Shown here: in pieces, positions 28,902 to 47,499 of the stretch
How positions within the stretch are numbered: position 1 is the stretch's first letter
How the letters are laid out: each line of letters begins with the position of its first letter
NCBI RefSeq assembly: GCF_900618535.1
Contig: NZ_UYJA01000004.1
Location: 496,001 to 560,000 of the forward strand
From: Pseudomonas bubulae
GTDB lineage: Bacteria; Pseudomonadota; Gammaproteobacteria; Pseudomonadales; Pseudomonadaceae
Length of the DNA stretch: 64,000 nucleotides
Direction: 5' to 3'
The notes under the pieces: model-generated
Seen by the model: only the letters and a program-made list of their open reading frames with translations
Told to the model about the DNA's origin: nothing
Database searches by the model: none
Translations under genes and position numbers: made by a program

Positions 28902-30236
28902 ATGATCAAGCAATTTATCAAACCCGCCCGCACCGGTGCGGTTTTTCTAGTGACTTGCCTGGCGGCTTCCATCGCCTGTGCCAGCGATAAAACCAGTTAC
29001 CCGGACGCCGCTGCCAGCGACCCGGCGAAGCTGGGCTGGATGGTCGGTGCACCGCCCCCGCCGGATCGCATCGTGCGCTTTGCCGACGGCAGTTATTTCC
29101 AGTTTCCCGCCATGCGCTGGAGTGTTTCCAACTTCCGTCAATTGATGCCTACCACCAATGTCTCCCGTGGCCTGGGTGCGCCCGTGCTGCTGGCCAGAGC
29201 CTTGCGCACGGATATCGACGCCTTGACCTTCGTGCCACTGGGCAGCAAGGAGCCGATGACCTGGGAACAGTCGCTGGCGGCGAACTACACCGACGGCATT
29301 GTGGTGCTGCACCGCGGCAAAATTGTTTATGAGCGTTACTTTGGTGTGCTGACCCCCGAAGGCCAGCACGGCGCCATGTCGATGACCAAGTCCGTGGTGG
29401 GTACTATGGGCGCGATGCTGGTGGCTGATGGCACGTTGGATGCCAATAAAAAAATTGCTGAGTATGTCCCCGAGCTGGCCAAGTCGGCCTTTGGCAACGC
29501 CACCCTGCGCCAGGTGCTGGACATGACCACGGGGCTTAAATACAGCGAAGATTATGCCGACCCCAATGCTGAAGTCTGGAAGCATGCACAGGCCGGTAAC
29601 CCGCTACCCAAACCCAAGGACTACACCGGCCCGCAAAGCTATATGGAATATTTGCAGACGGTCGAGCCGGAGGGGGAGCACGGCGAGGCCTTCGCTTATA
29701 AAACCGTGAACACCGATGTGCTGGGCTGGGTCATTGCACGAGTGACAGGGCGTAACGTTGCGCAATTGCTCTCGGAAAAAATCTGGCAGCGCATTGGCGC
29801 TGAACAATCGGCCTATTTCACCGTGGATTCAATCGGTACCCCGTTTGCGGGGGGTGGTTTGAATACAGGGCTACGGGACATGGCCCGCTTTGGAGAAATG
29901 ATCCGTAACAATGGTCAGTATCTCGGCAAGCAAATCGTACCCAAGGCGGTTGTCGATGACATTCGTGGTGGCGGCGATAAAGCGGCCTTTGCCAAAGCCG
30001 GTTATGACTTGCTTAAGGGCGCCAGCTATCGCGACATGTGGTGGGTGACGCACAACGCGGATGGTGCCTTTATGGCGCGCGGTGTTTACGGTCAGCGCAC
30101 CTACATTGACCCGAAAGCCGAAATGGTTATTGTGCGTTATGCCTCCAACCCGGTTGCCAGCAACTCGGCTAACGATCCGGTGACTATTCCTGCATTTGAA
30201 GCCCTGGCCAAACAGTTGATGACTCACCCGGACTGA
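28902..30236 (+). CDS. exported serine hydrolase, beta-lactamase/NylB-like family
   Basis: A 444-residue protein with an N-terminal signal peptide (about 1-27, ending ASIACAS) and a class C beta-lactamase/esterase fold. The catalytic SxxK is SMTK at 160-163, and the second motif region is FAYKTVNTDVLGW. The arrangement resembles 6-aminohexanoate-dimer hydrolase (NylB) relatives, which act as esterases or amidases rather than true beta-lactamases. The substrate is unknown. AAAAGGAA precedes ATG 28902, and a terminator follows. Likely periplasmic. Confidence 0.8.
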   Translation: MIKQFIKPARTGAVFLVTCLAASIACASDKTSYPDAAASDPAKLGWMVGAPPPPDRIVRFADGSYFQFPAMRWSVSNFRQLMPTTNVSRGLGAPVLLARALRTDIDALTFVPLGSKEPMTWEQSLAANYTDGIVVLHRGKIVYERYFGVLTPEGQHGAMSMTKSVVGTMGAMLVADGTLDANKKIAEYVPELAKSAFGNATLRQVLDMTTGLKYSEDYADPNAEVWKHAQAGNPLPKPKDYTGPQSYMEYLQTVEPEGEHGEAFAYKTVNTDVLGWVIARVTGRNVAQLLSEKIWQRIGAEQSAYFTVDSIGTPFAGGGLNTGLRDMARFGEMIRNNGQYLGKQIVPKAVVDDIRGGGDKAAFAKAGYDLLKGASYRDMWWVTHNADGAFMARGVYGQRTYIDPKAEMVIVRYASNPVASNSANDPVTIPAFEALAKQLMTHPD

Positions 30237-30281
30237 TAGCGCCAAAAAACGCTGGGAGTCGTGCTTGACCGGCTCCCATAG

Positions 30282-30299
30282 CGGCGTTTCGCCGTTTTT
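30282..30299 (+). terminator. terminator after the serine hydrolase gene
   Basis: CGGCG (30282-30286), loop TTT, CGCCG (30290-30294), then TTTTT, located 46 bases after the stop. Confidence 0.7.
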
Positions 30300-30386
30300 A
30301 AACCAAGATGAAGAATCCGTAAGCTCGACAAAAGTTTCATCATTTCTGCGATATCGTAACTAGATATTTCATAAGTGAGTGTTTCC

Positions 30387-32321
30387 ATGCGTGTCGATTT
30401 AGAGGCAGAGGAGGGCCGGCTCGAGTCTTTGCCTCGTTTCCAAAGCGCCAGCGCACAGGCTCGTCAGCTCTATCTACTGGGGGTAGTGCTGGCAGTCCTG
30501 GCGTTGCTGGCGTGGGTGCTGGCATTTTTTATAGGTCTGTTTTCATCGGAATCGCTGTGGCCGGTGCTGCTGGGCAATAACGCAGCAGCCATGCTGGTGC
30601 TGGCCGCAGGCGTTCAATCGGCTTACTGGGTGGCGGATTGGCGCAATGACGCACTCAACCCCGCACCACAGGTGGCTGAGGTCGCGCCCGACGAACAGTT
30701 GCGTGGCATTGAACGTTTTAACCAGCGGATTGATGCCGGGGCAAAACAGGTGCTGGCCACCATCGGCGCGCCCGTTTTGTGGCTGGCAGGCGTGAGCGGT
30801 GTCGCCTGGTGGAGCGTCCAGCACACCTGGAACCTGGCTTTACCCGGTTTGGCTCTGGGAACCTGGGGCAGTGTCGCGGCTGGCATTGCGGTGCTGTGCG
30901 CGTTTGCACTGTTAGTGTTCGAACGTTTCCTGGCGCAGCAACACCCTGGCCAATGGCCGGAGGCGCGTTTGCTGGCACCGTTGGTTCGCGTGCCCATCCT
31001 CACTTTGCTCCTGAGCGCCGTGTGCCTGATTTTCAGCAGCGACGATGCGGTGTGGCCTGCCCGCCTCGCGGTGCTGACCGGGTTGCTACCTGCTGCCGTG
31101 GCTATTGAGCTGATTCTGAGGGCGCTGGCTGCACTGTTCATCCCGCGCCGCGACAAACTAGAACCGCGCATGATCGGGCAAAGCTTTGTCGCTGGTATGT
31201 TGCGTTGGCCGCCTCAGCCATTGCTGACGCTGCAGAGCGAATTGCATAACCGGTTCGGCATCGACCTGCGCCAAATCTGGGCTTTTACCTTTATGCGCAA
31301 AGCGTTTTTCCCGGTGCTGGCGGTGGTTGCTGCTGTCGGCTGGGTGCTGAGCGGTGTGAGTGAAATCCCGCTGCAAGGTCGAGGGATTTATGAGCGCTTT
31401 GGTGAGCCGGTTGAAGTGTTGGGCCCGGGTTTGCACGTGGGCCTGCCATGGCCTTTTGGGCGAGTCCTGGCGGTGGAAAACGGTGTGGTACATGAGTTGG
31501 CCACTAGCACGGAATCGACTGTCGATCCGCTACTCACGCCTGCCGATGGTTTACCACCGCTTACCGCCAATCGCCTGTGGGATGCCACCCATGTGAATGA
31601 CAAGTCCCAGGTGATTGCCAGCGACAGTGGCGACAAACAGGGCTTTCAGATCGTCAATATGGACGTGCGTTTTGTCTATCGCATTGGCCTGAGCGACCAC
31701 GCCGCCATTGCCGCCACTTATCACAGTGCTGATGTACCGACGCTGATTCGCACTACCGCCAGCCGCATTCTGGTACACGACTTTGCCTCTCGGACGCTTG
31801 ATGGTGTGCTCGGTGAGCAGCGCAGTGCGCTGGCCGATGATATAGGCCACGCCGTGCAGGCTGATCTGGATGGCCTGGACAGCGGGGTGGAAATTCTTGC
31901 CACCGTGGTTGAAGCCATCCACCCACCTGCCGGGGCCGCCAATGCCTATCACGGTGTGCAGGCAGCACAGATCAGCGCGCAGGCCCTGATTGCCCGCGAA
32001 CGGGGCGCGGCCAGTGAACAAGCCAATGTGGCGCAATTGCAGGCCAGCGTCGCCCTGGATCAAGCCCATGCGCTGGCGCGTGAAATAAATGCCACCGCAC
32101 TGACAGCTGATCTGCGCTTTGGCGCCGAGCAAAAAGCCTACGCCAGTGCCGGTCATGCGTTCCTTTTGGAACAGTACCTGAGCCAGTTAAGCCAGGGGCT
32201 GAACAATGCCCGATTGCTGATCCTCGACCATCGCCTTGGGGGCAGCAGTGCGCCGACCCTCGACCTGCGTTCTTTCACACTGCCGGCCGATCCTGTCGCG
32301 CCGCGTAAAGCTGCTCAGTAA
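30387..32321 (+). CDS. SPFH/HflK-like protein with an N-terminal multi-helix membrane module
   Basis: A 644-residue membrane protein. About seven hydrophobic segments (roughly 28-52, 57-82, 125-145, 152-178, 196-216, 224-252 and 306-324) precede an SPFH (stomatin/prohibitin/HflK-C) domain that begins near 325 (GRGIYERFGEPVEVLGPGLHVGLPWPFG) and continues to an Ala-rich coiled coil (about 525-620). Plain HflK has one membrane helix, so the extra module is a distinct architecture. ATG 30387 is chosen; GTG 30375 is possible. First gene of a four-gene operon; its TAA is part of the AAGGAG site of the next gene. Automatic annotation usually says protease modulator HflK; partners and role are unknown. 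Confidence 0.75.
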   Translation: MRVDLEAEEGRLESLPRFQSASAQARQLYLLGVVLAVLALLAWVLAFFIGLFSSESLWPVLLGNNAAAMLVLAAGVQSAYWVADWRNDALNPAPQVAEVAPDEQLRGIERFNQRIDAGAKQVLATIGAPVLWLAGVSGVAWWSVQHTWNLALPGLALGTWGSVAAGIAVLCAFALLVFERFLAQQHPGQWPEARLLAPLVRVPILTLLLSAVCLIFSSDDAVWPARLAVLTGLLPAAVAIELILRALAALFIPRRDKLEPRMIGQSFVAGMLRWPPQPLLTLQSELHNRFGIDLRQIWAFTFMRKAFFPVLAVVAAVGWVLSGVSEIPLQGRGIYERFGEPVEVLGPGLHVGLPWPFGRVLAVENGVVHELATSTESTVDPLLTPADGLPPLTANRLWDATHVNDKSQVIASDSGDKQGFQIVNMDVRFVYRIGLSDHAAIAATYHSADVPTLIRTTASRILVHDFASRTLDGVLGEQRSALADDIGHAVQADLDGLDSGVEILATVVEAIHPPAGAANAYHGVQAAQISAQALIARERGAASEQANVAQLQASVALDQAHALAREINATALTADLRFGAEQKAYASAGHAFLLEQYLSQLSQGLNNARLLILDHRLGGSSAPTLDLRSFTLPADPVAPRKAAQ

Positions 32322-32332
32322 GGAGTCTTCTC

Positions 32333-33346
32333 TTGTCTCAATCCCACGATCACAGCAGCCATCATCATGGCTGTTCCCACCACGGCCATCACCATCATGA
32401 CGATACCCTTGAGCCAAGCCCCTTCCCGTGGCGACGCATGGGCTGGGCGGCATTGCTGGTGCTGTTTGCCATCGCCGCGGCGAGCCTGGTGCAAGTACGT
32501 TCCGGCGAAGCCACGGTAATTACCCGCTTTGGCAACCCGGCCCGGGTGCTGCTGGAGCCCGGTCTGGGCTGGCGCTGGCCGGCGCCATTTGAAGTCAGCG
32601 TGCCGGTGGATCTGCGTTTGCGCACCACCTCCAGCGGCCTGCAGGACGTGGGCACTCGCGATGGTCTGCGGATTATTGTGCAGGCCTATGTGGCCTGGCA
32701 GGTGCAGCCCGATGCCGAGAATGTGCAGCGCTTTATGCGCGCCGTACAAAATCAGCCTGACGAAGCGGCGCGGCAGATCCGTACATTTGTGGGGTCGGCA
32801 CTGGAAACGACGGCTGCCAGTTTTGATCTTTCAAGCCTGGTGAACACCGATGCCAGCCAGGTCAAAATTGCCGACTTTGAAGCGCAATTGCGTCAGCAGA
32901 TCGAACAGCAATTGCTCAACACCTATGGTGTGCGTGTGCTGCAAGTGGGCGTGGAGCGCCTGACTTTGCCATCGGTCACGCTCACGGCGACGGTTGACCG
33001 CATGCGTGCCGAGCGCGAAACCATCGCCACGGAGCGCACCGCCGCAGGCAAGCGCGAAGCGGCGCAAATCCGCTCCGCTGCCGAACGCGATGCGCGCATC
33101 CTGCAGGCCGATGCGAGCATCAAGGCCGCGGATATCGAAGCGCAGTCGCGGGTAGAAGCCGCGCAGATTTATGGTCGTGCCTATGCCAGTTCGCCCGCGC
33201 TGTACAACGAACTGCGCGCGCTCGATACGCTGGGAACAATGGTTAATCCCGGCACAAAAATTATTTTGCGCACCGATGCCGCACCCTTCCGGGTACTGGT
33301 CGATGGCCCGCCGAAGCTGGATGCCAAGGCTGGATCGCAGCCATGA
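32333..33346 (+). CDS. SPFH/HflK-like protein with a His-rich N-terminal tail
   Basis: A 337-residue protein starting at TTG 32333, supported by TAAGGAG 8 bases upstream. The first 24 residues (SHDHSSHHHGCSHHGHHHH region) hold 11 His and one Cys, a likely metal-binding tail. One membrane helix follows at 37-54, then an SPFH domain (SGEATVITRFGNPARVLLEPG) and an Arg/Ala/Glu-rich coiled coil (ATERTAAGKREAAQIRSAAER, about 225-290). With HflK topology the tail would be cytoplasmic and the SPFH domain periplasmic. It overlaps the next gene by 4 bases. A metal link is inferred from the tail and the P1B ATPase two genes on. Confidence 0.78.
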   Translation: MSQSHDHSSHHHGCSHHGHHHHDDTLEPSPFPWRRMGWAALLVLFAIAAASLVQVRSGEATVITRFGNPARVLLEPGLGWRWPAPFEVSVPVDLRLRTTSSGLQDVGTRDGLRIIVQAYVAWQVQPDAENVQRFMRAVQNQPDEAARQIRTFVGSALETTAASFDLSSLVNTDASQVKIADFEAQLRQQIEQQLLNTYGVRVLQVGVERLTLPSVTLTATVDRMRAERETIATERTAAGKREAAQIRSAAERDARILQADASIKAADIEAQSRVEAAQIYGRAYASSPALYNELRALDTLGTMVNPGTKIILRTDAAPFRVLVDGPPKLDAKAGSQP

Positions 33347-34401
33347 GCCAGGCACCTGATGAAATCAAAGGTGTCAGCAGCCCATGGCAACAGGCGGGGC
33401 GACTGGCATTTTTGGGCCTGTACGCGGTGACTGTATTCGCGGCGGTTGCCTGGGGGTTTTCCAATGTGCGTCAGATCGATCCGCAAAATCGTGCCGTGGT
33501 ATTGCGCATGGGCGCGTTGGACCGTATCCAGAATGCCGGCTTGTTGTGGGCGTGGCCAAAGCCTTTCGAGCAAGTGGTGATCGTCCCCGCAGCAGACCGC
33601 GTGAGTGAACGCCGGATTGAAAATCTGCTGCGCTCGGATGTGGCGTTGCAGGCCGATCGAAAAGCTTCGTTCGCCACGCCGGTCAGCGATGCGCTGGCCG
33701 GTTCCGGGTATTTGCTGACCGGTGATGCTGGCGTGGTGCAACTGGATGTACGGGTGTTTTACAACGTCACCGAGCCCTATGCGTTTGTGCTGCAAGGTGA
33801 GCATGTACTGCCTGCGCTGGACCGGTTGGTGACACGTAGCGCCGTTGCGCTGAGCGCCGCCCGCGATCTGGACACGATTCTGGTGGCGCGCCCGGAACTG
33901 ATCGGCAGCGACAGCCAGGCAGCTGAACGCCGTGAGCGCCTGCGCGGTGATCTGGTGCAAGGCATCAACCAACAACTCGCATCCCTGAGTGCCACCGGGC
34001 AGGGTATTGGTTTGCAAGTGGTACGGGTGGATGTGCAATCGAGTTTGCCGGGCCCTGCGGTGAATGCCTTCAATGCGGTACTGACGGCCAGCCAGCATGC
34101 GGAGCAAGCGGTGGCTGCAGCGCGCAATGAAGCGGCCAAAGTCACCCAATCGGCCACCCAGCAGGCTGATCGCAGTGTCGAGCAGGCCCAGGCCCAGGCC
34201 AGCGAGCGTCTGGCCAAGGCTCAGGCAGATACGTCTACCATCATCAACCTGGCCAAGGTACAGCAGGCCGGCAATGACTCTGGCTTGATGTTGCGCCTGT
34301 ACCGCGAACGCATGCCCAGGATTCTGGGGCAGGCCGGTTCTGTCACCAGCGTCGATCCCAACGATGATTCCCGCCTGATTATTCAGGGAGCCGAACAATG
34401 A
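33343..34401 (+). CDS. SPFH/HflC-like membrane protein
   Basis: A 352-residue protein with one N-terminal membrane helix (about 20-40), an SPFH domain from about 43 (IDPQNRAVVLRMGALDRIQNAGLLWAWPKPFE) and a coiled coil rich in Ala/Gln/Glu (about 240-310). It has the layout of HflC and may form a hetero-oligomeric ring with the two preceding SPFH proteins. Its ATG overlaps the stop of the second gene (ATGA), and its own stop overlaps the P-type ATPase start the same way, so the order is fixed by translational coupling. It does not lie beside hfq-hflX-hflKC, so these are paralogues. Confidence 0.78.
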   Translation: MSQAPDEIKGVSSPWQQAGRLAFLGLYAVTVFAAVAWGFSNVRQIDPQNRAVVLRMGALDRIQNAGLLWAWPKPFEQVVIVPAADRVSERRIENLLRSDVALQADRKASFATPVSDALAGSGYLLTGDAGVVQLDVRVFYNVTEPYAFVLQGEHVLPALDRLVTRSAVALSAARDLDTILVARPELIGSDSQAAERRERLRGDLVQGINQQLASLSATGQGIGLQVVRVDVQSSLPGPAVNAFNAVLTASQHAEQAVAAARNEAAKVTQSATQQADRSVEQAQAQASERLAKAQADTSTIINLAKVQQAGNDSGLMLRLYRERMPRILGQAGSVTSVDPNDDSRLIIQGAEQ

Positions 34402-36308
34402 ATGCGTCTGCCACTCAACCCGCCGTGAGCCTGTTGACGGGTCCCGAACAACGTCGCGCAGCGCGCCAACTGACACTGGCCATGCTGGCGCTGGGCTTGT
34501 TGGGTTTAGGGCTGGTATGGCGCTGGCTGATGCCCGCGCAAATCGGCGTCAGTCAGTTGCTGCTGGGTTTTGCTTCAATATTGGTGGCCGTGCCGGTCAT
34601 GCGTTCGGCCTGGTACAGCCTGCGCTACCCGAGCTTGCACGGGATCACCGACCAGTTAATTGCCTTGGCCATGCTCGGCGCCTGGGCCACCGGCGATTTG
34701 CTGACGGCGGCTTTGCTGCCGATCATCATGATTTTTGGCCATGTGCTGGAAGAGCGCAGTGTGATTGGCTCCCAGGAAGCGATCCATGCCCTGGGCAAAC
34801 TGACCCGCAGCCAGGCGCGTTTATTTCAGGCTGACGGCAGTTTGCTGGAAGTCGACAACGCCACCCTTAAAAGCGGCGATCAGGTAGAGGTGCGCGCTGG
34901 AGATCGGGTGCCCGCCGATGGTCTGGTACTGGCAGGGCAGGCCAGCCTGGATACGGCCTCTATTACCGGTGAGTCAGTGCCGCTGGAAGTCGGTAGCGGC
35001 ATGCCGGTCTTTGGTGGGGCCATCAACCTCGATGGTTTACTGCGGGTACAGGTTACCCGCACCGGTGAAGAATCGACATTAGGTAAAGTCATCGCCCTGA
35101 TGCAAAGCGCCGAGCGCGCCAAGCCGCCGATCACCCGTTTGCTTGAACGCTATGCTGGCAGTTATATGGTGTTGGTGTTGATGATTGCAGCAGTGACCTG
35201 GTTTATCACCAACGATGCCCAGGCCATGCTGGCAGTGCTCGTGGCTGCGTGCCCTTGTGCGCTGGTGTTGTCGGCACCGGCGACGGCGATTGCCGGGATT
35301 GCCGTGGCGGCGCGCCACGGGATCTTGATCCGTAGTTCGGCGTTTCTGGAAGAGCTGGCAGACCTCAGCTCATTGGTTGTGGATAAAACCGGCACCCTGA
35401 CCTACGGCACTTTGCGCCTGCAAGCGATCGAAACCGATGTGCTGCACGAGCAACCGCTGCTGCAACTGGCCGCCAGTTTGGGCGCCGCCAGCAGCCACCC
35501 GGTGAGCCGGGCGCTGGCCGGGTTGGTGAGCCACGAGCAGATGCTCACCCTCAATGATGTGCGCGAGCGACAAGGGTTGGGCATTGTGGCCAGCACCGGG
35601 CAGGGTGAAGCAGCGTTGGGCCGTCCTGAATTGTTCAGTCAATTGAACATCACCACCAGTGCCGTGCCTGACCACGATGGCCCCATTGCCGGGCTTTCCC
35701 TCAATGGCAATTTCCTGGGCTGGATGTTGCTGGCAGATAGCGTAAAACCCGAAGCCCGACAGGCGTTAAGTGAATTACGTGAACTGGGGCTTGGGCGCCA
35801 GGTGCTGCTGACCGGCGACCGCCAGAGCGTGGCCGAGCATTTGGCGCACACTGTGGGCATCAACGAAGTTCAGGCGCAGGCACTGCCCGAAGACAAGCTC
35901 GAACGTGTGCTGAGTGAAATCGGCAACGGCTTTCGGCCTATGGTGGTGGGCGATGGTATCAACGATTCGCTGGCGCTCAAGGCCGGTGTGGTGGGGGTTG
36001 CCATGGGCGCCGGTGGCGCGGATATCGCGCTGGCGTCATCGGATATCGTGTTGATCGGCAGCGATTTGCGTCGGCTGGGCACCTGCGTGCGCCTGAGCCG
36101 TGAGTGCCGGCATACTTTGCAGGTCAATGTGATCATCGGCCTGGGCTGGACCCTGGCGATTGTCGCGGCGGCGGCGTTTGGCTGGCTGGGGGCCGCCGGC
36201 GCGATGATCGCCGCGGTGTTGCATAACCTCAGCACATTGCTGGTGCTGGGCAATGCCGGGCGTTTGCTGCGGTTTCATGAACCCCTGCAGCCGTTGAAGT
36301 TGGCTTGA
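34398..36308 (+). CDS. P1B-type heavy-metal-translocating ATPase without a soluble metal-binding domain
   Basis: A 636-residue P-type ATPase. TGES lies at 190-193, the membrane metal-site motif CPC at 285-287 (VAACPCALVLSAPATAIAG), the phosphorylation site DKTGTLT with Asp329, the P1B hallmark HP at 367-368 (SSHPVSRAL) and GDGINDS. No N-terminal HMA or Cys/His-rich domain is present; the protein starts directly at the first helices (about 23-45). The last helix reads AVLHNLSTLLVLGNAGRLL, not a classic Cu, Zn or Co signature, so the metal is undetermined. It overlaps the HflC-like gene by 4 bases. A His-rich tail is supplied by the second operon protein. Confidence 0.85.
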   Translation: MNASATQPAVSLLTGPEQRRAARQLTLAMLALGLLGLGLVWRWLMPAQIGVSQLLLGFASILVAVPVMRSAWYSLRYPSLHGITDQLIALAMLGAWATGDLLTAALLPIIMIFGHVLEERSVIGSQEAIHALGKLTRSQARLFQADGSLLEVDNATLKSGDQVEVRAGDRVPADGLVLAGQASLDTASITGESVPLEVGSGMPVFGGAINLDGLLRVQVTRTGEESTLGKVIALMQSAERAKPPITRLLERYAGSYMVLVLMIAAVTWFITNDAQAMLAVLVAACPCALVLSAPATAIAGIAVAARHGILIRSSAFLEELADLSSLVVDKTGTLTYGTLRLQAIETDVLHEQPLLQLAASLGAASSHPVSRALAGLVSHEQMLTLNDVRERQGLGIVASTGQGEAALGRPELFSQLNITTSAVPDHDGPIAGLSLNGNFLGWMLLADSVKPEARQALSELRELGLGRQVLLTGDRQSVAEHLAHTVGINEVQAQALPEDKLERVLSEIGNGFRPMVVGDGINDSLALKAGVVGVAMGAGGADIALASSDIVLIGSDLRRLGTCVRLSRECRHTLQVNVIIGLGWTLAIVAAAAFGWLGAAGAMIAAVLHNLSTLLVLGNAGRLLRFHEPLQPLKLA

Positions 36309-36427
36309 AAGTGATTCGGATAAACGGTCGCGCCCGCTCTAGCGTCGACCTCCTGTCCGCGAAGCTGACAGTTTTCGTTATTCGTCTAACCTATAGTTTT
36401 GATATCTGAAATGAAGGAGGATTACAG

Positions 36428-37612
36428 ATGCTCGCGCAACTTCCACCGGCCTTACAGAAACTTCAACTTCCATTACGCCTGAGGCTGTGGGACGGGCACG
36501 AGTTCAATTTCGGCCCGACGCCCAGCGTCACGATCGTGGTCAAGGACCCGACCCTGGTGGCTCAATTTACCCACCCCAGCCTCGACTTGCTGGGCAGTGC
36601 CTTCGTTGAGGGTCGGCTTGAACTGGAAGGCTCTATCAGCGAAGCGATTCGGGTATGCGATGAGTTGAGCCAGGCGCTGGTAGATGATGATGACTACGCC
36701 CCGCCACCCCGGGTTTATCACGACAAGGCGACTGACGCCGAGTCCATCTCTTATCACTACGACCTGTCCAATGACTTCTACCAGCTGTGGCTTGATCGCG
36801 ACATGGCGTATTCCTGTGGTTATTTTGAAACCGGGGAAGAGAGTCTGGACGAAGCCCAGCAAGCCAAGTTTCGTCTGTTATGCCGCAAGCTGCGACTCAA
36901 GCCCGGCGAATACTTGCTGGATGTTGGCTGCGGTTGGGGCGGGCTGGCGCGGTTTGCCGCACGCGAATATGGGGTCAAGGTATTCGGGATTACCCTCAGC
37001 AAGGAACAACTCAAACTTGCCCGTGAGCGCGTCAACGCTGAAGGTCTGCAAGACAAGGTTGATCTGCAACTGCTCGATTATCGCGATCTGCCGCAGGATG
37101 GCCGGTTCGACAAAATCGTCAGCGTCGGGATGTTTGAACACGTCGGGCACGCCAACCTGCGCGAATACTGCGAAATTCTCTCCAGAGCGGTGCGCGAAGG
37201 CGGGTTGGTGATGAACCACGGGATCACTTCCAAGCACACCGATGGCCGCCAGGTTGGTCGGGGTGCAGGGGATTTTATCGATCGTTATGTGTTCCCCAAT
37301 GGCGAGTTGCCGCATCTGTCGATGATGACTGCCGAAATCAGCGAGGCCGGGTTGGAAGTGGTCGATGTTGAAAGTTTGCGCCTGCACTACGCGCGTACGC
37401 TGGAGCATTGGAGCCAGCGCCTGGAGCAAAAACTGGATGCTGCCGCCAAGCAGGTACCGGAGCAGGCCCTGCGGATCTGGCGTTTGTATCTGGCCGGTTG
37501 TGCCTACGCCTTTGCCCATGGCTGGATCAACATCGACCAGATTCTGGCGACCAAACCCCATGCCGATGGCTCGTTGGAGTTACCACCGACCAGGGCGGAT
37601 ATTTACCGCTGA
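36428..37612 (+). CDS. cfa: cyclopropane-fatty-acyl-phospholipid synthase family protein
   Basis: A 394-residue SAM-dependent enzyme that adds a methylene bridge to unsaturated acyl chains of membrane phospholipids. It shows SISYHYDLSNDFYQLWLD, the SAM motif LDVGCGWGG (164-172), and FEHVGHANL with MNHGITS, all CFA synthase signatures. ATG 36428 has AAGGAGGA upstream, a strong ribosome site. CTATAGT at about 36391-36397 could be a stationary-phase type -10. It converges with the next gene, overlapping 10 bases at the 3' ends. Confidence 0.92.
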   Translation: MLAQLPPALQKLQLPLRLRLWDGHEFNFGPTPSVTIVVKDPTLVAQFTHPSLDLLGSAFVEGRLELEGSISEAIRVCDELSQALVDDDDYAPPPRVYHDKATDAESISYHYDLSNDFYQLWLDRDMAYSCGYFETGEESLDEAQQAKFRLLCRKLRLKPGEYLLDVGCGWGGLARFAAREYGVKVFGITLSKEQLKLARERVNAEGLQDKVDLQLLDYRDLPQDGRFDKIVSVGMFEHVGHANLREYCEILSRAVREGGLVMNHGITSKHTDGRQVGRGAGDFIDRYVFPNGELPHLSMMTAEISEAGLEVVDVESLRLHYARTLEHWSQRLEQKLDAAAKQVPEQALRIWRLYLAGCAYAFAHGWINIDQILATKPHADGSLELPPTRADIYR

Positions 37613-40291: not shown

Positions 40292-40852
40292 TCAGAACTC
40301 GTTTTGCAGCGCTTTATAGCCGCGCACCAAATCCACATTGGTGCGCGCTACATCTTCTGAAAACTCCGATGCGCTAACACTCACTGGCGCAAATTGGCTC
40401 AGGTCCGTGTTTGGTCCGATTCGGGTCGTGGACGGCACATAGAAGTTATCCGGCAGGTCGCGGCCATCCACGACCGAGTTATGCCGCACCACACAGCCAT
40501 CACCCAACTCGCAATTGAACAGCACACTGTTGAAACCGATAAATACCCTATCGCCAACACGGCATGGCCCGTGAACGATGGAACGATGTGCTATCGAAGT
40601 GTTTTCACCAATGATGACCGCCGCGCCGGACTTTGAGTGAATGACCACGCCGTCCTGAATATTTGAATTAGCGCCGATGCTGATCGGTTGCATGCCGCCG
40701 TCCTTGTCGACTTCATCGGCGCGGATCACGGCGTACGGTCCGACAAATACGTTTTCGCCGATCACTACTTTGCCGCAAATGATGGCCGTTCTGTCGACAT
40801 AGGCGGACTCGGCGATTTGTGGCAAGTCGCCTGATGGATTTTTTCGGATCAT
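40292..40852 (-). CDS. gamma-class carbonic anhydrase-like protein (zinc-starvation island)
   Basis: A 186-residue left-handed beta-helix protein of the gamma-carbonic anhydrase family. Candidate metal ligands are His72, His89 and His94, with the 17/5 spacing known for Cam-type enzymes, and IQDGVVIHS and FIGFNSVLFNC repeats are visible. Gamma enzymes can use Fe or Co in place of Zn, so a Zur-controlled copy may back up zinc-dependent carbonic anhydrases. Its ATG overlaps the znuA-like stop by 4 bases, making it the last gene of the folE2 operon. Pseudomonas aeruginosa has a related gene next to folE2. Confidence 0.85.
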   Translation of the reverse strand: MIRKNPSGDLPQIAESAYVDRTAIICGKVVIGENVFVGPYAVIRADEVDKDGGMQPISIGANSNIQDGVVIHSKSGAAVIIGENTSIAHRSIVHGPCRVGDRVFIGFNSVLFNCELGDGCVVRHNSVVDGRDLPDNFYVPSTTRIGPNTDLSQFAPVSVSASEFSEDVARTNVDLVRGYKALQNEF

Positions 40853-41739
40853 GGTGTGCTCAATGCGTTGTGCAGGGTGGTGAGGTTGTATTCGAAAAGG
40901 CCAAGAAAAGTGCTGGCCGGACCTTCACTGGCCAGGGCATCGGAGTACAGCGTGCCACCAATCTGTGCGCCACTTTCATCGGCAATCTGCTGCAACAGAC
41001 GCGAGTCTTTAATGTTCTCCATAAATACGGCCCTCACCTTGTCGGCCCGTATCTGACGAATCAGCGAAGCGACTTCAGCGGCCGAAGGTTCGCGCTCAGT
41101 GGACAAACCCTGTGGTGCCATAAAGTCGATGCCATAGGCCTGGCCCAGATAGCCGAAGGCATCATGGGAGGTCACGATACGGCGATTGCCGGCGGGCAGG
41201 TTGCCCAGCTCTGTTATGGCCTCGGCTTGCAGTCGATCCAGCTTTTTCAGATAAGCCGCAAGGTTGCGGTTGTAGTACGCCTCATCGGCCGGGTCGGCCT
41301 TGATCAGCGCTTGAGTGATGTTGTTCACATACAGTTTTGCGTTTGTCAGGTTGTGCCAGGCGTGAGGGTCGGGGATGGTTTCGCCGTCTTCCTCCATCGT
41401 GTGAGCAGCCACTCCTTTGCTGGCAGTCACGATAGCCCCCGGGGTTTCGGTACTGCTCACCAGGCGATCAAGCCAGGGCTCGAACCCCAGGCCATTTTTG
41501 ATAATGATCTTGGCATTGAGCAGTGCCTTGGCATCGTCCGGGGTGGGCTCATAGGTATGTGCATCCTCATCAGGGCCGACCAGCGCGCTGACGTGCACAT
41601 GTTGGCCGCCGATTGCCCGGGTCATGTCGCCGAGAATGCTGAAGCTGGCAACGACAGGTATTTTCGGTGTCTGAGCCGCGACGCCAAGGGACAAGCCCAT
41701 CGCCACGCACATACTGAATATCATGGTTAGAGCACGCAT
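40849..41739 (-). CDS. znuA: zinc ABC transporter substrate-binding protein (ZnuA-like)
   Basis: A 296-residue cluster A-I (ZnuA/TroA family) periplasmic metal receptor with signal peptide 1-22. Likely ligands are His61 (DEDAHTYEPTPDDA), the His in DPHAWHNL, the His in SHDAFGYLG and the Asp in LYSDAL. A three-His/one-Asp set favours Zn(II). It lacks the long His/Asp-rich loop of classical ZnuA. ATG 41739 gives the proper signal peptide; an extended frame reaches into znuB. Fourth gene of the folE2-znuC-znuB-znuA-carbonic anhydrase operon. Confidence 0.88.
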   Translation of the reverse strand: MRALTMIFSMCVAMGLSLGVAAQTPKIPVVASFSILGDMTRAIGGQHVHVSALVGPDEDAHTYEPTPDDAKALLNAKIIIKNGLGFEPWLDRLVSSTETPGAIVTASKGVAAHTMEEDGETIPDPHAWHNLTNAKLYVNNITQALIKADPADEAYYNRNLAAYLKKLDRLQAEAITELGNLPAGNRRIVTSHDAFGYLGQAYGIDFMAPQGLSTEREPSAAEVASLIRQIRADKVRAVFMENIKDSRLLQQIADESGAQIGGTLYSDALASEGPASTFLGLFEYNLTTLHNALSTP

Positions 41740-41750
41740 CGTGTTGCACC

Positions 41751-42617
41751 TCATCGGGATGACAGCAAAGGCGGTCGGCGCAGCAAACCGTGTACCGGAC
41801 CAAAAATGACAGACAACGCATAGCTGCAACCCGCTATCAGTACGATGGCCGGGCCGCTGGGCAGTGAGTAATAAAACGACAGTAAAAGGCCCAGCCAAAC
41901 CGAAACGCAGCCAATCGCAGCCGAGATCAGGATCAGCACAGGCAGTCGACGGCTCCAGAAGCGCGAGGCAATAGCCGGCAACATCATCAGGCCAACCACC
42001 ATCAGTGCGCCGATAGCCTGAAAGCCGATCACCAGATTCAACACCACCAATGTCAGGAATAGCCCGTGAGCCAATGGCCCCAGCCGACTGACACTGCGAA
42101 GGAATAGAGGATCCAGGGTGTCGAGCAACAATGGGCGGTAGATGGCTGCCATCAGCAGCATGCTGAAGCCGGTTACCCAGAGCATGCCTGTGAGCGTCTG
42201 GCTGTCGACGGCCAAGGCTGAACCAAACAACAGATGGAGCAGATCAAGACGTTTACCGGCGATGCCAAGGATCAATATGCCGCTGGCCAATGAGATCGGG
42301 TAAATCGCCGCGAGGCTGGCATCTTCACGCAAGCCGGTGCGCCGAGTGATCCAGGCTGACACTCCGGCCATGCTCAAACCCGCCCCCAACCCCCCCAATG
42401 TCAAAGCAGGCAGGCTCAGCCCGGCAAACCAAAACCCCAGCGCAGCTCCGGGGAGAATGCCGTGTGCGACTGCATCACCAATCAAACTCATGCGCCGCAA
42501 GATCAAAAAAACGCCCAGGGGTGCCGTGCTACATGCCAGTACCAGACCGCCAAATAAGGCACGGCGCATAAAGACAAATTCCTGGAACGGTTGCCATAAC
42601 TGGCTGACGATAACCAT
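41751..42617 (-). CDS. znuB: zinc ABC transporter permease (ZnuB-like)
   Basis: A 288-residue ABC-3 family permease with about eight hydrophobic segments and the conserved FLILRRMSLIGDAVAHGILPG near the N-terminus and GALMVVGLMMLPAIAS later. It forms the inner-membrane channel for the metal delivered by the ZnuA-like protein. Its ATG shares a base with the znuC-like stop (TGATG), so the two are translationally coupled. Confidence 0.9.
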   Translation of the reverse strand: MVIVSQLWQPFQEFVFMRRALFGGLVLACSTAPLGVFLILRRMSLIGDAVAHGILPGAALGFWFAGLSLPALTLGGLGAGLSMAGVSAWITRRTGLREDASLAAIYPISLASGILILGIAGKRLDLLHLLFGSALAVDSQTLTGMLWVTGFSMLLMAAIYRPLLLDTLDPLFLRSVSRLGPLAHGLFLTLVVLNLVIGFQAIGALMVVGLMMLPAIASRFWSRRLPVLILISAAIGCVSVWLGLLLSFYYSLPSGPAIVLIAGCSYALSVIFGPVHGLLRRPPLLSSR

Positions 42618-43276
42618 CAGGCGACCTGCGGCGGGTTGATCAGTTGCTCGGTCGGCGCCAGTAAGTTGCCGCTGCTTTTAATCAATAATGTTTGGGGGAT
42701 ATGTTTGCGAACGGCGTTAAGGTCATGGCACACAACCAGCAACGTTCGGCCTTCGGTTTGCCATCTCTGGATATGTTGCCAGAGCAGTTCTTGCCCCAGT
42801 TCATCGAGAGCTGCATGGGGTTCATCCAGTAGCAACACCGAGGCATCGGCAAGGCATAAGCGGGCCAGAAGCGAGCGTTGCAATTCGCCGCCCGACAGGG
42901 CCATAAGCGGTCGGTGTTCCAGGCCGTCTAAATGCCAGTCTGCCAAGACAGCGTTCAACCGGTCGTTTCGTTGTTGGGCCGTTTGCTTCTTGCCCCAAAA
43001 TCCCGCAGCCACCAACTCTTGCAAACTGATGGGGAATTGCCGATCCATAAATTGTTGTTGAGGCATAAAGGCCACGTTGCCTTGGCGTGGAACATCCAGC
43101 ACAACTTTTCCCGAGAGCGGCTTTTGCAGCCCCGCAATCACTTTGAGCAAACTGCTTTTGCCGCAACCATTGGCACCTATTACGGCTGTGAGGCTGCCTT
43201 TGACCAAGTTCATATTTAGTGCTGGGGTGAGGGGCTGACCTGGAACGCCCCAAGTCAGATGCTGACAACCGATCAT
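42617..43276 (-). CDS. znuC: zinc ABC transporter ATP-binding protein (ZnuC-like)
   Basis: A 219-residue ABC ATPase: Walker A GANGCGKSS at 34-42, signature LSGGELQRSLLARL, Walker B VLLLDEPHAALD and HD switch (VVCHDLNAV). ATG 43276 shares a base with the folE2 stop (TGATG), with GGGAGG just upstream. It energises the ZnuA/ZnuB-like importer encoded downstream. Confidence 0.9.
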   Translation of the reverse strand: MIGCQHLTWGVPGQPLTPALNMNLVKGSLTAVIGANGCGKSSLLKVIAGLQKPLSGKVVLDVPRQGNVAFMPQQQFMDRQFPISLQELVAAGFWGKKQTAQQRNDRLNAVLADWHLDGLEHRPLMALSGGELQRSLLARLCLADASVLLLDEPHAALDELGQELLWQHIQRWQTEGRTLLVVCHDLNAVRKHIPQTLLIKSSGNLLAPTEQLINPPQVA

Positions 43277-44169
43277 CACGCCTCCCAATTCCAAAAGCTT
43301 TCGGCCACGGCGTCATGGCTGTGCAAACTTTCTGCGTGAACAACTTTAAGTTTGAACGCCTCCACGCCAGAAGTTTTCTGCAACACCGTGTTGAGCCTTC
43401 GGGCAGCGTCTTCGCAGAACATCAAGTTTTGACCGTTGGCCAGTGCGAAGGCTTGTTCGTCGGCGCGTTTTACCGCTGTTTGAACGGCAGTCCCTAATGC
43501 GCCTTCGGCGTTATTGATGATTGTTTCCAGAGGCAGTTGTGGGAACTGATGTCCCAAACGAATCGTTAGATGTGCAGTGCTTCGCTGGCTGTGTGGTGTG
43601 GCTACGATACCTTTTGAACTACCGAGCCAAGCAAGAACATCTGCGTGTTGCAGTGATGTGTTGGCGAAATCATCGATGAATTGTCGCTGTATTAATTGCC
43701 GTGCGAGCGCCGCTGAGCAGGGGCATGTGGAGGAGTAGCTCACGAGAATTTTTAGTTCCACGTGGAACATTCCGTTTTTCAAACTCGCTTCAATGCTTGT
43801 TGGATAGCTTTTCCAGCCTGCCAATGGGCTGACTAAGGCCGGGCGTTTGAGCAGTACATCGCTGTGAATTCGCACATAGGCTTTGTTCGATAAACCTTCG
43901 TGGCTGTCGAGAAAGCACTGCAATAGTTGCCTGAGCAGGGCCGGCGTAAGGTTTTCCGTTTCCAGCTGATCCAACGCCAGATACAGGCGAGACATGTGTA
44001 TGCCCCGTGCAGTTGCGTCTACGAGATTGACGCCGGCATCTATTTTCGCGCTGAGGCGTTGGCCGTTGATTAATACCGGGGAAGCAATGCCGCACATACC
44101 GACCCATTCAAGCGCTATTGCTTGCTGGGATGACTGCGCGGCGATATCTGGCAAAGTCAGCGCATTCAT
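43276..44169 (-). CDS. folE2: GTP cyclohydrolase FolE2 (zinc-independent)
   Basis: A 297-residue GCYH-IB (COG1469) enzyme that converts GTP to dihydroneopterin triphosphate for folate synthesis, replacing zinc-dependent FolE when zinc is scarce. The STCPCSAALARQ segment holds the conserved catalytic Cys149, and NAEGALGTAVQTAVKRADEQAFA is typical. ATG 44169 is 33 bases from the perfect Zur-box palindrome at 44202-44214. First gene of the leftward five-gene zinc operon. Residues 135-138 (FHVE) are encoded by a perfect parS site. Confidence 0.93.
   Translation of the reverse strand: MNALTLPDIAAQSSQQAIALEWVGMCGIASPVLINGQRLSAKIDAGVNLVDATARGIHMSRLYLALDQLETENLTPALLRQLLQCFLDSHEGLSNKAYVRIHSDVLLKRPALVSPLAGWKSYPTSIEASLKNGMFHVELKILVSYSSTCPCSAALARQLIQRQFIDDFANTSLQHADVLAWLGSSKGIVATPHSQRSTAHLTIRLGHQFPQLPLETIINNAEGALGTAVQTAVKRADEQAFALANGQNLMFCEDAARRLNTVLQKTSGVEAFKLKVVHAESLHSHDAVAESFWNWEA
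43755..43768. other. parS centromere site inside folE2
   Basis: GTTCCACGTGGAAC is a perfect 14-base palindrome identical to the core of the recF-linked site at 237-250. It lies about 39.5 kb from oriC and codes for FHVE in FolE2, as the first site does in RecF. Chance occurrence of this 14-mer in 64 kb is very unlikely. Confidence 0.88.
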
Positions 44170-44201
44170 AAAGTGAGATCCGTCGCAGAGTGTTTTGACA
44201 T

Positions 44202-44214
44202 GTTATATTATAAC
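44202..44214. promoter_or_regulatory. Zur box between folE2 and the amidase gene
   Basis: GTTATATTATAAC is a perfect palindrome fitting the gammaproteobacterial Zur pattern GTTATANNATAAC. It lies 33 bases before folE2 (leftward) and 83 bases before the amidase ATG (rightward), so one site may repress both divergent units when zinc is plentiful. The zur gene is not in the window. Confidence 0.85.
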
Positions 44215-44296
44215 TATAAAGTCGACGATGCTTTTTTGCTGGGGCATACACACAGCAATCTTGAGTACGGATGCTCCCTTATCTGCGGTACAGGCC

Positions 44297-45508
44297 ATGC
44301 ACAGACGTCAACTGCTCAACTGGCTGCTTGCCAGTTCCGTATTCACATTGCCGCTGGGAATTTCAGCTGCCCAAATTCAGCACGCCAGGCTATGGCGCAC
44401 CGGGAATACCCTGCGTCTGGTTCTGGATCTGAGTGGGCCGGTGCAGTACAAAACCTTCTCATTAACGGCTCCCGATCGGCTGATTATTGATGTGAGTGGT
44501 GCCAGCCTGAAGGGGGATTTCAGTGAGTTGGTACTGGCCAATACGGGCCTGCGTTCGATTCGCTCCGGGCATTACGGCCAGGGTGATACGCGCATCGTGC
44601 TGGACCTGGATGAGCCGGTTCAGCTCAGCAGTTTTCTGCTGTCACCCCAGGGCGGGCAAGGTCACAGACTGGTGCTAGACCTGGCCAAAAGTGCGGTCCC
44701 CCAACTGAGTGTGGCAGCGGCAACGCCAAGCAACGCACACCCCAAACGCGACATTATTGTGGTGATTGACCCCGGGCACGGGGGTAAGGATCCGGGTGCG
44801 ACGAGCGCCAAAGGCCATCGTGAAAAGGATGTTGTTTTGTCCATCGCCCAGCTGTTGGCCAGGCGGCTCAAGCGTGAAAAAGGCTTTGATGCACGGCTGG
44901 TGCGCAATGATGATTTCTTTGTCCCCCTGCGCAAGCGGGTAGAAGTCGCCCACAAGCACAATGCAGACCTTTTTATTTCGGTGCATGCAGACGCCGCGCC
45001 GCGCCTTACGGCGTCTGGAGCGTCGGTGTACGCGCTCTCGGAGGGTGGTGCCACATCGGCCACGGCGCGGTATATGGCACAGCGTGAAAATGGTGTGGAT
45101 TTGCTCGGTGCCACCCGCCTTTTGAACCTCAAAGACAAAGATCCGATGCTCGCAGGTGTGATCCTCGATATGTCCATGAATGCCACCATCGCGGCCAGTT
45201 TGCAGTTGGGCAATACCATTCTGGGTAGCCTTTCGGGCATCACCTCACTGCATCAAAAACGCGTGGAACAGGCAGGTTTTGCCGTGCTCAAGTCGCCGGA
45301 TATTCCGTCGATTCTGGTAGAGACGGGCTTTATGTCCAACCCCCGCGACAGCGAGCGCTTGATCACCGCGCGTCATCAACAGGCGGTAGCCGAGGGTTTA
45401 TTTAACGGATTAATCGCTTATTTTCAGAAAAATCCGCCCGCCAGCAGCCATATGGCGTGGGTTAACGAACAGAAAAACAGTACGTTCGTCACTTCAGGGT
45501 TGTCTTAA
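44297..45508 (+). CDS. N-acetylmuramoyl-L-alanine amidase, Tat-exported (AmiA/AmiC type)
   Basis: A 403-residue cell-wall amidase that cleaves the stem peptide from MurNAc. ATG 44297 gives a twin-arginine signal peptide (RRQLLNWLLASSVFTLPL) ending near 25, as in AmiA/AmiC. An AMIN domain (about 26-135) is followed by Amidase_3 with zinc ligands His161 (DPGHGGKDPG), Glu176 (REKDVV) and His230 (SVHADA). The frame is open from TTG 44195, but that would run through the Zur box. It is the paralogue linked to folE2 in the zinc island; dedicated zinc-starvation amidases are known there in Pseudomonas aeruginosa. Confidence 0.9.
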   Translation: MHRRQLLNWLLASSVFTLPLGISAAQIQHARLWRTGNTLRLVLDLSGPVQYKTFSLTAPDRLIIDVSGASLKGDFSELVLANTGLRSIRSGHYGQGDTRIVLDLDEPVQLSSFLLSPQGGQGHRLVLDLAKSAVPQLSVAAATPSNAHPKRDIIVVIDPGHGGKDPGATSAKGHREKDVVLSIAQLLARRLKREKGFDARLVRNDDFFVPLRKRVEVAHKHNADLFISVHADAAPRLTASGASVYALSEGGATSATARYMAQRENGVDLLGATRLLNLKDKDPMLAGVILDMSMNATIAASLQLGNTILGSLSGITSLHQKRVEQAGFAVLKSPDIPSILVETGFMSNPRDSERLITARHQQAVAEGLFNGLIAYFQKNPPASSHMAWVNEQKNSTFVTSGLS

Positions 45509-45515
45509 ATGTATT

Positions 45516-45528
45516 GTTATAATGTATC
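45516..45528. promoter_or_regulatory. imperfect Zur-like box upstream of the COG0523 operon
   Basis: GTTATAATGTATC matches the Zur pattern GTTATANNATAAC at 9 of 11 fixed positions and is flanked by AAATG and CATTT. It lies 74 bases before the first COG0523 gene. Binding is inferred. Confidence 0.55.
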
Positions 45529-45601
45529 ATTTGTTGATCCGGTATCGGATTGACTGCCAAGCGGGCGTTTTGACCTGCAGCCCTGATGAGGAAATATCCA
45601 G

Positions 45602-46810
45602 ATGTCGAATCGTCTTCCTGTAACTGTTCTCTCAGGCTTTTTAGGTGCAGGTAAAAGCACGCTGCTCAATTATATTTTGCGCAACCGCGACAACTTGCGC
45701 GTGGCCGTGATCGTTAACGATATGAGCGAAATAAATATTGATGGCGGTGAAGTACAGCGCGATGTGACCTTGAACCGGGCTGAAGAAAAACTGGTCGAAA
45801 TGAGCAACGGCTGCATCTGTTGCACCCTGCGTGAAGACTTGCTTGAAGAGGTCAGCGCACTGGCCAGGGAGGGTCGATTTGATTATTTATTGATCGAGTC
45901 GACCGGTATTTCAGAACCGCTGCCTGTGGCAGAAACTTTTACGTTTCGTGATGAATCAGGACAAAGCCTGGCCGATATTGCCCGCCTGGATACGATGGTT
46001 ACAGTGGTCGACGGGCTGAATTTTCTTCAGGATTATCAAGCCGCAGAGAGCCTGGATTCACGGGGTGAAACCCTTGGAGAATCAGACGAACGGTCAATTA
46101 CTGATTTATTGATCGAACAAGTTGAGTTCGCTGACGTCATTTTAATCAGCAAAATTGATTTAATAAGTTCCGACGAACGGCAAGAATTAATGGCCATTCT
46201 GCAACGCCTCAACGCTCAGGCCGAAATAATGCCTATGGTCATGGGTGAAATTGCGCTGCATAAAATTCTCGATACCGGCCGGTTTGACTTTGACCGTGCG
46301 GCGCAGGCACCGGGCTGGTTGCAAGAGTTACGCGGTGAGCATGTGCCCGAAACCGAAGAGTACGGCATCGCCTCCAGTGCCTATCGTGCGCGCCGGCCTT
46401 TTCATCCCGAACGTTTTTTCAATTTTATCGAGCGGCCCTGGACCAATGGCAAACTGCTGCGCTCCAAAGGTTTTTTCTGGCTGGCCAGTAAATTTCAGGA
46501 GGCGGGCAGTTGGTCTCAGGCTGGCGGTCTGATGCGCTATGGGTTTGCCGGTCGCTGGTGGCGCTTTGTGCCCCGCGACCAATGGCCGCAGGAGCCGCAA
46601 GCCAAGGCAGAAATATTGCAAAAATGGCTGCCGGATACAGGAGATTGCCGCCAGGAATTGGTGTTTATCGGTCAGCACATCGACTTCGCCCGGCTGACGG
46701 CTGAACTCGATGCCTGTTTGCTCAACGATGCTGAAATGGCCTTGGGCGAAGCGAGCTGGAAATTGCTGAGCGATCCTTTTGGCGACTGGTGTGAAGAGGT
46801 GGCTGCATGA
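45602..46810 (+). CDS. zigA: COG0523 GTPase metallochaperone (ZigA-like)
   Basis: A 402-residue COG0523 (CobW-like) GTPase: Walker [10 protein letters not shown] at 12-20, the metal-binding CxCC motif GCICCTLR (Cys71, Cys73, Cys74), IESTGISEP as Walker B region, and a C-terminal CobW_C domain ([17 protein letters not shown]). The N-terminal NDMSEINID fits the ZigA subgroup, which moves zinc to client enzymes during zinc shortage. A Zur-like box lies upstream. Its stop overlaps the DUF1826 start (ATGA). Confidence 0.88.
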
Positions 46811-47460: not shown

Positions 47461-47499
47461 GGCATATTGCTTGCTTCAATCCGTACAGAAGCTGGCCTC

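Follow-up and report, generated by a model that had tools for sequence, protein, structure and literature searches.

Why are three membrane proteins of the SPFH family encoded in one operon with a P1B-type metal ATPase, and do the four proteins work together? The question is raised by a locus in a stretch of 64,000 nucleotides from Pseudomonas bubulae (contig NZ_UYJA01000004.1, positions 496,001 to 560,000; in the following, the window), in which genes 1, 2 and 3 encode the SPFH proteins F1, F2 and F3 and gene 4 the ATPase. A sequence-only reading of the window had proposed that the SPFH proteins form a cage around a metal exporter. The host is a Pseudomonas related to P. psychrophila and the operon belongs to the hmtA family; judged from sequence and gene order it is the Pseudomonas hmtA operon (PA2439-38-37-[36]-35) and not a new metal exporter. 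We consider it rather probable that this is an hmtA-type operon for the import of Zn (and Cu) that belongs to the zinc-starvation response, and that its pump works inside an assembly of the SPFH proteins.

Conservation of the four genes as a unit

Genes 1-2-3-4 were found in this order on one strand in 100 of 101 loci, most of them from Pseudomonas; the one exception (L124) is a contig of 3,283 bases on which gene 1 alone was found. The set leans to Pseudomonas because it takes in the best 80 of 437 loci, every one of them titled Pseudomonas, and two of its rows (L091 and L097) are one genome. The order is also kept in 11 of 11 further loci of a gammaproteobacterial family (f13), which is probably the Enterobacteriaceae because of a near match to the Klebsiella copy. 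A search of f13 by the ATPase found the pump in 13 of 295 genomes, and in all 13 the trio adjoins it. In one of these loci (L095, genome G339) gene 2 is interrupted by an in-frame stop some 160 residues from its start; this is either a broken copy or an assembly error.

Full-length gene 1 and the HmtA-type ATPase were each present in 19 of the 148 genomes of the family set, and these were the identical 19. The same was true for the phylum set, which overlaps the family set (9 of 299 genomes each, identical 9), and for the G250 family (1 of 199 each, the same genome), which is probably the Rhizobiaceae because it pairs with Rhizobium in the trees. The ATPase cut-offs were E 1e-120 or 1e-100; in the family and phylum sets the weakest ortholog scored 866.9 bits, with nothing between it and the cut-off. 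Matches to gene 1 with E >1e-15 in these two sets were excluded, since they involve other SPFH proteins or only short stretches. The genome searches scored the 4-8 best first-look candidates per genome.

In a plasmid collection gene 1 occurs in 10 of 72,556 records and the ATPase in the identical 10. The annotated order is kept on plasmids of Rhizobium tumorigenes, Klebsiella aerogenes, Paraburkholderia sprentiae and Burkholderia ubonensis; the record of R. lusitanum is without annotation. Two plasmids that carry the unit are typed as conjugative, namely pYD-K10_1 of K. aerogenes (L182) and pMSMB2035 of B. ubonensis (L184), the latter with transposase genes on both sides.

Four protein trees of 23 rows each all recover the groups L094+L180 (Rhizobium-type), L183+L184 (Burkholderia-type), L086+L090, window+L168 and L098+L128, with deeper forks that are often weak and some long branches that are uncertain. 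The comparison of sequences thus supports joint inheritance of the pump with the three SPFH genes, and the fact that the four genes travel together across distant bacteria suggests that scaffold and pump act as one machine. The gene order that the sequence-only reading had proposed to look for outside close relatives is found in alpha-, beta- and gamma-proteobacteria, on chromosomes and on plasmids, and is accompanied by co-occurrence and by similar trees.

Identity of the pump

The product of gene 4 matches Pfam E1-E2_ATPase and Hydrolase and scores above the cut-off with the heavy-metal P1B profiles TIGR01525 (516.9 bits) and TIGR01512 (489.8 bits). It shares 80% identity with its counterpart in P. 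aeruginosa PA7 (L097, the same genome as L091, which is G126; the gene 1 copies of L097 and of the L091 = G126 query row are identical). Because of this identity and of the matching gene order we regard it as the ortholog of HmtA. In PA7 the order is F1-F2-F3-extra open reading frame-ATPase, the order of P. aeruginosa PAO1 being taken from papers, and about 650 additional bases lie between gene 3 and the ATPase (six rows in all, one genome counted twice). The extra reading frame in L097, L087, L089 and L092 encodes 150-175 residues with a signal-peptide-like hydrophobic N-terminus and occupies the PA2436 position; L086, L090 and the window lack a PA2436-type reading frame at this place. The nearest of the 23 compared operons is that of P. 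psychrophila HA-4 (L168; 82, 95, 89 and 89% for genes 1-4). In the Burkholderia-type members HNVGT takes the place of the HNLST motif.

PA2435 (HmtA) has been reported to be an importer of Zn and Cu (PMC10393844; PMC8456098), its overexpression raising cellular Zn and Cu (PMC10393844). The proposal of metal export is therefore not supported, since the ATPase is the ortholog of a reported Zn/Cu importer and the P. aeruginosa operon is counted in the zinc-starvation response. The host genome contains three further CPC-type ATPases (L002-L004), two of which (L003 and L004) have CxxC in the first 200 residues; another paralog (L005) has no CPx motif and was not used.

The SPFH proteins

All three proteins pass the gathering score of the SPFH superfamily, and their Pfam Band_7 scores are 72.2 (F1), 106.5 (F2) and 62.8 bits (F3) at a cut-off of 23.6. 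By NCBIfam profiles F1 and F3 are nearest to HflK and F2 is nearest to HflC, all below the equivalog cut-offs: F1 reaches 57.4 and F3 98.4 bits with TIGR01933 (HflK, cut-off 159.4), and F2 reaches 88.8 bits with TIGR01932 (HflC, cut-off 134.4). The best relatives of F2 in the PDB are HflC chains. By these profile scores F1-F3 are SPFH proteins by domain and not HflK or HflC by cut-off.

Six Band_7 matches were obtained in the host genome (5.03 Mb), namely the trio, an adjacent pair elsewhere and one other. One member of the pair is an HflC above the cut-off (283.3 bits, scored with neighbours); it adjoins a Band_7 protein at C5:174-176 kb, which from its N-terminus we take to be HflK. We reject the idea that the trio stands in for an absent HflK/HflC, given the presence of this HflC beside a further HflK-like gene.

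Histidine-rich tails

F2 begins with a His-rich tail. The tail is probably cytosolic, because the arginines of a WRR sequence precede the membrane helix and because of the HflC-type orientation; HflC is oriented such that its N-terminal tail lies in the cytosol. A tail with at least 4 His was found on F2 in 114 of 117 loci, and the other three have a His/Cys-rich tail on the ATPase, which is a new observation. The three exceptions are close relatives of one another, and the N-termini of their ATPases are MSHQCSHGHVHIHP (L182), MSHQCSHGHIHP (L228, from an alternative upstream start) and MSQQCCHGHMHP (L229).

Of the 117 loci, 89, including the window, have the tail on F2 only, 25 on both proteins, two on the ATPase only and one on neither at the threshold of 4 His. 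The last is L229, with 1 His on F2 and 3 His plus 2 Cys on the ATPase. When the tails of F2 and ATPase are summed, at least 4 His are present in 117 of 117 loci; L235, for example, combines a short F2 tail (4 His) with a long ATPase tail (10 His). The ATPases of the P. aeruginosa group, of Rhizobium and of some P. syringae relatives also bear His-rich tails; that of the window has neither such a tail nor an N-terminal CxxC domain. The count is based on starts chosen by a script and, for tails without an anchor motif, on the first 35-40 residues; L124 was left out, since it has gene 1 only.

As a control, HflC was weak, since 18 loci gave 15 rows and these mostly began within other SPFH proteins; the only clear HflC N-termini among these rows, in L193 and L194, have 0 His. 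The HflK-like protein of the host has 0 His in its first 60 residues. We infer that the F2 tail receives, stores or senses the imported metal. Neither this tail nor the six-helix domain ahead of the SPFH part of F1 had been mentioned in the sequence-only reading.

The N-terminal domain of F1

Residues 1-261 of F1 alone, modelled with AlphaFold 2 (28 sequences), gave six main membrane-type helices at a pLDDT of 90.6 and a pTM of 0.85. When this model was compared with solved structures by VIA-align, rows 1-17 were all members of the CDF family (YiiP, ZnT1, ZnT3, ZnT7 and SLC30A10; Z 13.9-8.9), with 8f6k_B as the best (Z 13.9, root mean square deviation 3.6, 196 aligned residues) and the first unrelated row at Z 8.5, scores to be read with caution, because a Z of about 13-14 can arise for helical models that have no known relationship. 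In the model of whole F1 (pTM 0.45) the N-terminal part again matched the CDF family. Foldseek gave a best E of 0.037 and TM-scores of about 0.4.

At the level of sequence no match to Cation_efflux (PF01545) was found for F1 of the window, nor among the 25 of 36 family matches listed for 28 members, and hhalign of the domain against 9 CDF proteins gave a probability of 0.2%. CDF proteins carry an HxxxD metal site in helix 5; the predicted helix 5 of the window F1 (residues 191-215) contains no His or Asp. The new finding is thus an N-terminal domain that is predicted to fold like the YiiP/ZnT zinc transporters without support from sequence, and that from its model could either be a degenerate form of a CDF domain or only resemble one. 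Two short matches to the F1 membrane domain (G106:C1:4791931-4792290 and G119:C1:2749077-2749343) have an in-frame stop and are possible remnants of lost operons, or chance.

Possible regulation by zinc

In relatives a palindromic box similar to GTTATATCGTAAC is found at the position of the Zur-type box upstream of gene 1 in the window. The box of L168 (P. psychrophila) is GTTATATCGTAAC, from which the window box differs by two changes in the left half; the window box ranks 5th among 127,976 window positions. The window strain may have weakened its zinc control, the nearest compared relative (L168) having kept an intact box. In 106 upstream regions the pattern GTTATANNNTWWC was present without mismatch in 93, with one mismatch in 7, two in 3 and three in 3, compared with 0.1% of mononucleotide shuffles (20 per region) without mismatch; the independent cases are far fewer than 93, because the rows include many close relatives and one genome twice (L091 and L097). 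A slightly wider pattern matched 9 of the 11 loci of f13. On the plasmids of R. tumorigenes, Paraburkholderia, B. ubonensis and Klebsiella there is no good match, the loci showing two or three mismatches.

The response of the P. aeruginosa operon to zinc is on record. In a znuA mutant PA2434, PA2435, PA2437, PA2438 and PA2439 were reported to be up 6.5-, 5.6-, 14.4-, 10.6- and 9.0-fold, respectively, with a weak putative Zur site at the operon (E 0.11) (PMC4542158). Purified Zur was reported to shift the PA2439 promoter, the complete shift requiring zinc (PMC8531726), and PA2437-2439 are counted in the Zur regulon (PMC9431628); a review contradicts Zur binding at the operon (PMC10393844). Upon Zn depletion PA2435 (HmtA) and the HflC/HflK-like proteins PA2437-2439 are reported to rise, significantly only in part (PMC11761036).

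Published work on the trio

According to a locus-tag table PA2439, PA2438 and PA2437 are PA14_33070, PA14_33080 and PA14_33110 (PMC9431628), which have been studied as PaFlo5, PaFlo6 and PaFlo7 (PMC13086221). That study reports the trio from few species of different classes and suggests horizontal transfer; its discussion describes attenuated virulence in Galleria and its abstract calls the SPFH proteins non-essential for virulence (PMC13086221). The main text of a survey of SPFH proteins (PMC2636767) contains neither "ATPase" nor "transporter".

The sequence-only reading had held that a pairing of SPFH proteins with an ATPase was not functionally described. This holds in part. The pairing is already present in published zinc RNA sequencing and proteome tables, and the trio has been deleted as PaFlo5-7; among the papers listed by our literature searches none treats or tests the SPFH scaffold and the pump as one system, and a paper outside these listings or behind a subscription may exist.

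Proposed mechanism and alternative explanations

On the reading that we favour, F1-F3 would assemble into a ring or vault like that of HflK/HflC, with periplasmic domes and with membrane helices surrounding HmtA, and the six-helix domain of F1 would be the membrane part that contacts the pump. HmtA would carry Zn2+ (or Cu) inward from the periplasm, and the many His-rich tails of F2 in the cytosol (in some lineages those of the ATPase also, or instead) would take up the metal, pass it on or sense it. In the window the tails would substitute for the metal-binding domain that is missing from the ATPase.

Several points weigh against this reading. The physical coupling of SPFH proteins and pump, that is, the cage round the pump, is inferred at the level of genomes. 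The import by HmtA is termed unusual and in need of confirmation in a review (PMC10393844), hmtA mRNA has been reported to be low and unrepressed by added Zn (PMC8531726), and joint deletion of PaFlo5-7 was reported to cause only slight phenotypes in the tested conditions, with about 20% less biofilm (PMC13086221). The window box scores 11.1 versus 15.0-20.8 for 14 distinct boxes of relatives and is thus degenerate; GTTATANNNTAAC is no commoner in the host genome than its reversed control (1+3 versus 3+3), so that a single match proves little. The tails of F2 and ATPase co-occur in 25 of the 117 loci and therefore are not simply interchangeable, and the likeness of F1 to CDF proteins is based on the predicted fold only.

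The trio could alternatively be a zinc-starvation version of HflK/HflC that modulates the zinc protease FtsH or protects membrane proteins, and whose place in the operon of hmtA reflects no more than a common need for both at low zinc. We regard this as unlikely, even though F1-F3 most resemble HflK/HflC, the host has its own HflC beside a further HflK-like gene, and the operon is zinc-regulated in P. aeruginosa. Full-length gene 1 and the ATPase never separate in the three genome sets, and in f13 the trio adjoins the pump throughout (with gene 2 of L095 interrupted); moreover, all three proteins stay under the equivalog cut-offs, and the His-rich tails sit on F2 or on the ATPase.

Less likely still is that the trio aids the making or the stability of HmtA, as a chaperone or by protection from proteolysis, and stays outside the transport path. 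The co-occurrence of gene 1 and ATPase would agree with this equally, and flotillin microdomains of S. aureus have been reported to stabilise unfolded proteins (PMC11222466), but the conserved His-rich tail of F2 and the six-helix domain of F1 would be left unexplained. The original idea of an SPFH cage around a metal exporter, for which one may quote that P1B ATPases usually export and that NCBIfam places the ATPase in a cadmium/heavy-metal subfamily, has very little chance of being correct, given an ortholog that is reported to import and to be induced by zinc starvation, the zinc-starvation genes in the neighbourhood and the three other CPC-type ATPases of the host, two with CxxC.

Returning to the assembly of SPFH proteins and HmtA as an import machine, one may go further and picture a "metal-import vault", in which the SPFH proteins form a periplasmic dome and degenerate CDF-like domains a membrane floor round the P1B ATPase; the enclosure would make an exporter-type pump import, and a ring of cytosolic His-rich tails would receive the metal. 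This is speculation that we ourselves doubt. HmtA is a member of an exporter family, and its direction of import is said to need confirmation (PMC10393844). If the vault were real, F1 would have a novel architecture, in which a zinc-transporter fold is joined to an SPFH domain. A primary metal pump with an SPFH cage as obligate subunit would likewise represent a novel class of transporter complex, one that plasmids carry from one bacterium to another.

If the trio belongs to the machine at all, studies of HmtA have left out most of the subunits, and the PaFlo5-7 mutant might have shown weak phenotypes because it was tested without zinc limitation. SPFH cages would then gain a client besides FtsH, and one that is genetically simple.

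Layout and genomic neighbourhood of the locus

The coordinates of the features are collected in Table 1. As the sequence-only reading had it, and as the open reading frame coordinates bear out, the four genes lie on the same strand with a gap of 11 bases between genes 1 and 2 and ATGA overlaps between genes 2 and 3 and genes 3 and 4; the stop of gene 1 (32319-32321) lies within the TAAGGAG that precedes the TTG of gene 2. Gene 1 was taken to start at 30387 and not at the GTG at 30375, because the N-terminus MRVDL/MQVDL is kept in Pseudomonas relatives. For gene 2 a script chose TTG as the start in 98 of 106 loci, and this widely kept TTG may lower the translation of F2 relative to the neighbouring genes. 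A search for promoter and terminator signals in 30200-36500 gave none above shuffles.

Table 1. Features of the hmtA-type operon, in window positions
Feature	Position	Strand	Remarks
Degenerate Zur-type box GCGATATCGTAAC	30348-30360	+	26 bases upstream of the gene 1 ATG; one exact occurrence in the window
Gene 1 (F1)	30387-32321	+	644 residues; HflK-like SPFH protein with additional N-terminal membrane domain; PA2439 position
F1 N-terminal six-helix domain	30438-31151	+	Residues 18-255; predicted CDF-like fold
F1 SPFH/Band_7 domain	31374-32009	+	Residues 330-541; fold match to HflK, prohibitin, erlin and QmcA
Gene 2 (F2)	32333-33346	+	337 residues, TTG start; HflC-like SPFH protein; PA2438 position
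F2 His-rich N-terminal tail	32333-32404	+	11 His ahead of the membrane helix
Gene 3 (F3)	33343-34401	+	352 residues; HflK-like SPFH protein; PA2437 position
Gene 4	34398-36308	+	636 residues; P1B metal ATPase, HmtA type; PA2435 position
ATPase CPC motif	35250-35258	+	Sixth transmembrane helix; invariant in 12 aligned members
ATPase DKTGT phosphorylation site	35382-35396	+	Invariant in 12 aligned members
ATPase HNLST motif	36222-36236	+	Last transmembrane helix; HEGST there in 7qbz

The operon lies 4 kb upstream of a zinc-starvation cluster (40292-48474) that has two arms, one with a carbonic anhydrase-like protein, an Azt-like metal ABC transporter and FolE2, the other with an amidase, ZigA, an uncharacterised protein and a second CobW-like protein. 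FolE2 and ZigA score above the profile cut-offs; the AztC/AztB/AztA-like ABC transporter, the AmiC/AmiA-like amidase and the second CobW-like protein score below. Between the arms, at 44202-44214, there is a perfect Zur-type palindrome, GTTATATTATAAC. The Zur regulon of P. aeruginosa is stated to include FolE2, AmiA and a gamma-carbonic anhydrase (PMC9431628).

In the 101 loci the downstream flank is kept to the extent that a cfa-like gene is present in 86 and a cls-like gene in 82; the upstream hydrolase is present in 1. None of 14 flank proteins was found in 15 of the 101 loci, 12 of them from other genera (L086-L097) and three, L112, L124 and L164, on short or cut contigs. The plasmid loci have different neighbours again; in Paraburkholderia genes for a metal ABC transporter and for a PCu(A)C copper chaperone lie close to the unit. 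Since the flanks vary between the loci, the common part is the four genes.

Comparison with known systems

The FtsH-HflKC complex is similar in that the SPFH domain of the trio follows a membrane helix and precedes a long helix, and in that HflK and HflC are the best solved relatives. The operon differs in encoding three SPFH subunits rather than two, with scores under the equivalog cut-offs, and in having the His-rich tail of F2, six added helices in F1 and an ATPase as neighbour. CDF proteins (YiiP, ZnT1, ZnT3, ZnT7, SLC30A10) share the predicted six-helix fold of the F1 N-terminus, whereas for the F1 domain no profile match was seen and predicted helix 5 is free of His and Asp. PaFlo5-7 are the same three SPFH genes as the trio of the window; the main text of the study on them (PMC13086221) is without "ATPase" or "P-type", has "zinc" once and contains no link to HmtA that we found.

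The solved ATPases closest in sequence are 7qbz/7qc0 ("cadmium translocating P-type ATPase"), presumably of the P1B-4 type, and 4umv, a zinc-transporting ATPase. The window ATPase has CPC in the sixth helix where 7qbz has SPC, and HNLST in the last helix where 7qbz has HEGST. From the P. aeruginosa HmtA operon (PA2434-PA2439) the operon of the window differs by the lack of a PA2436-type gene and of a His-rich tail on the ATPase and by its degenerate Zur box, but it shares with it the gene order, an ATPase 80% identical to that of PA7, a Zur-type box upstream of gene 1 and the His-rich tail of F2.

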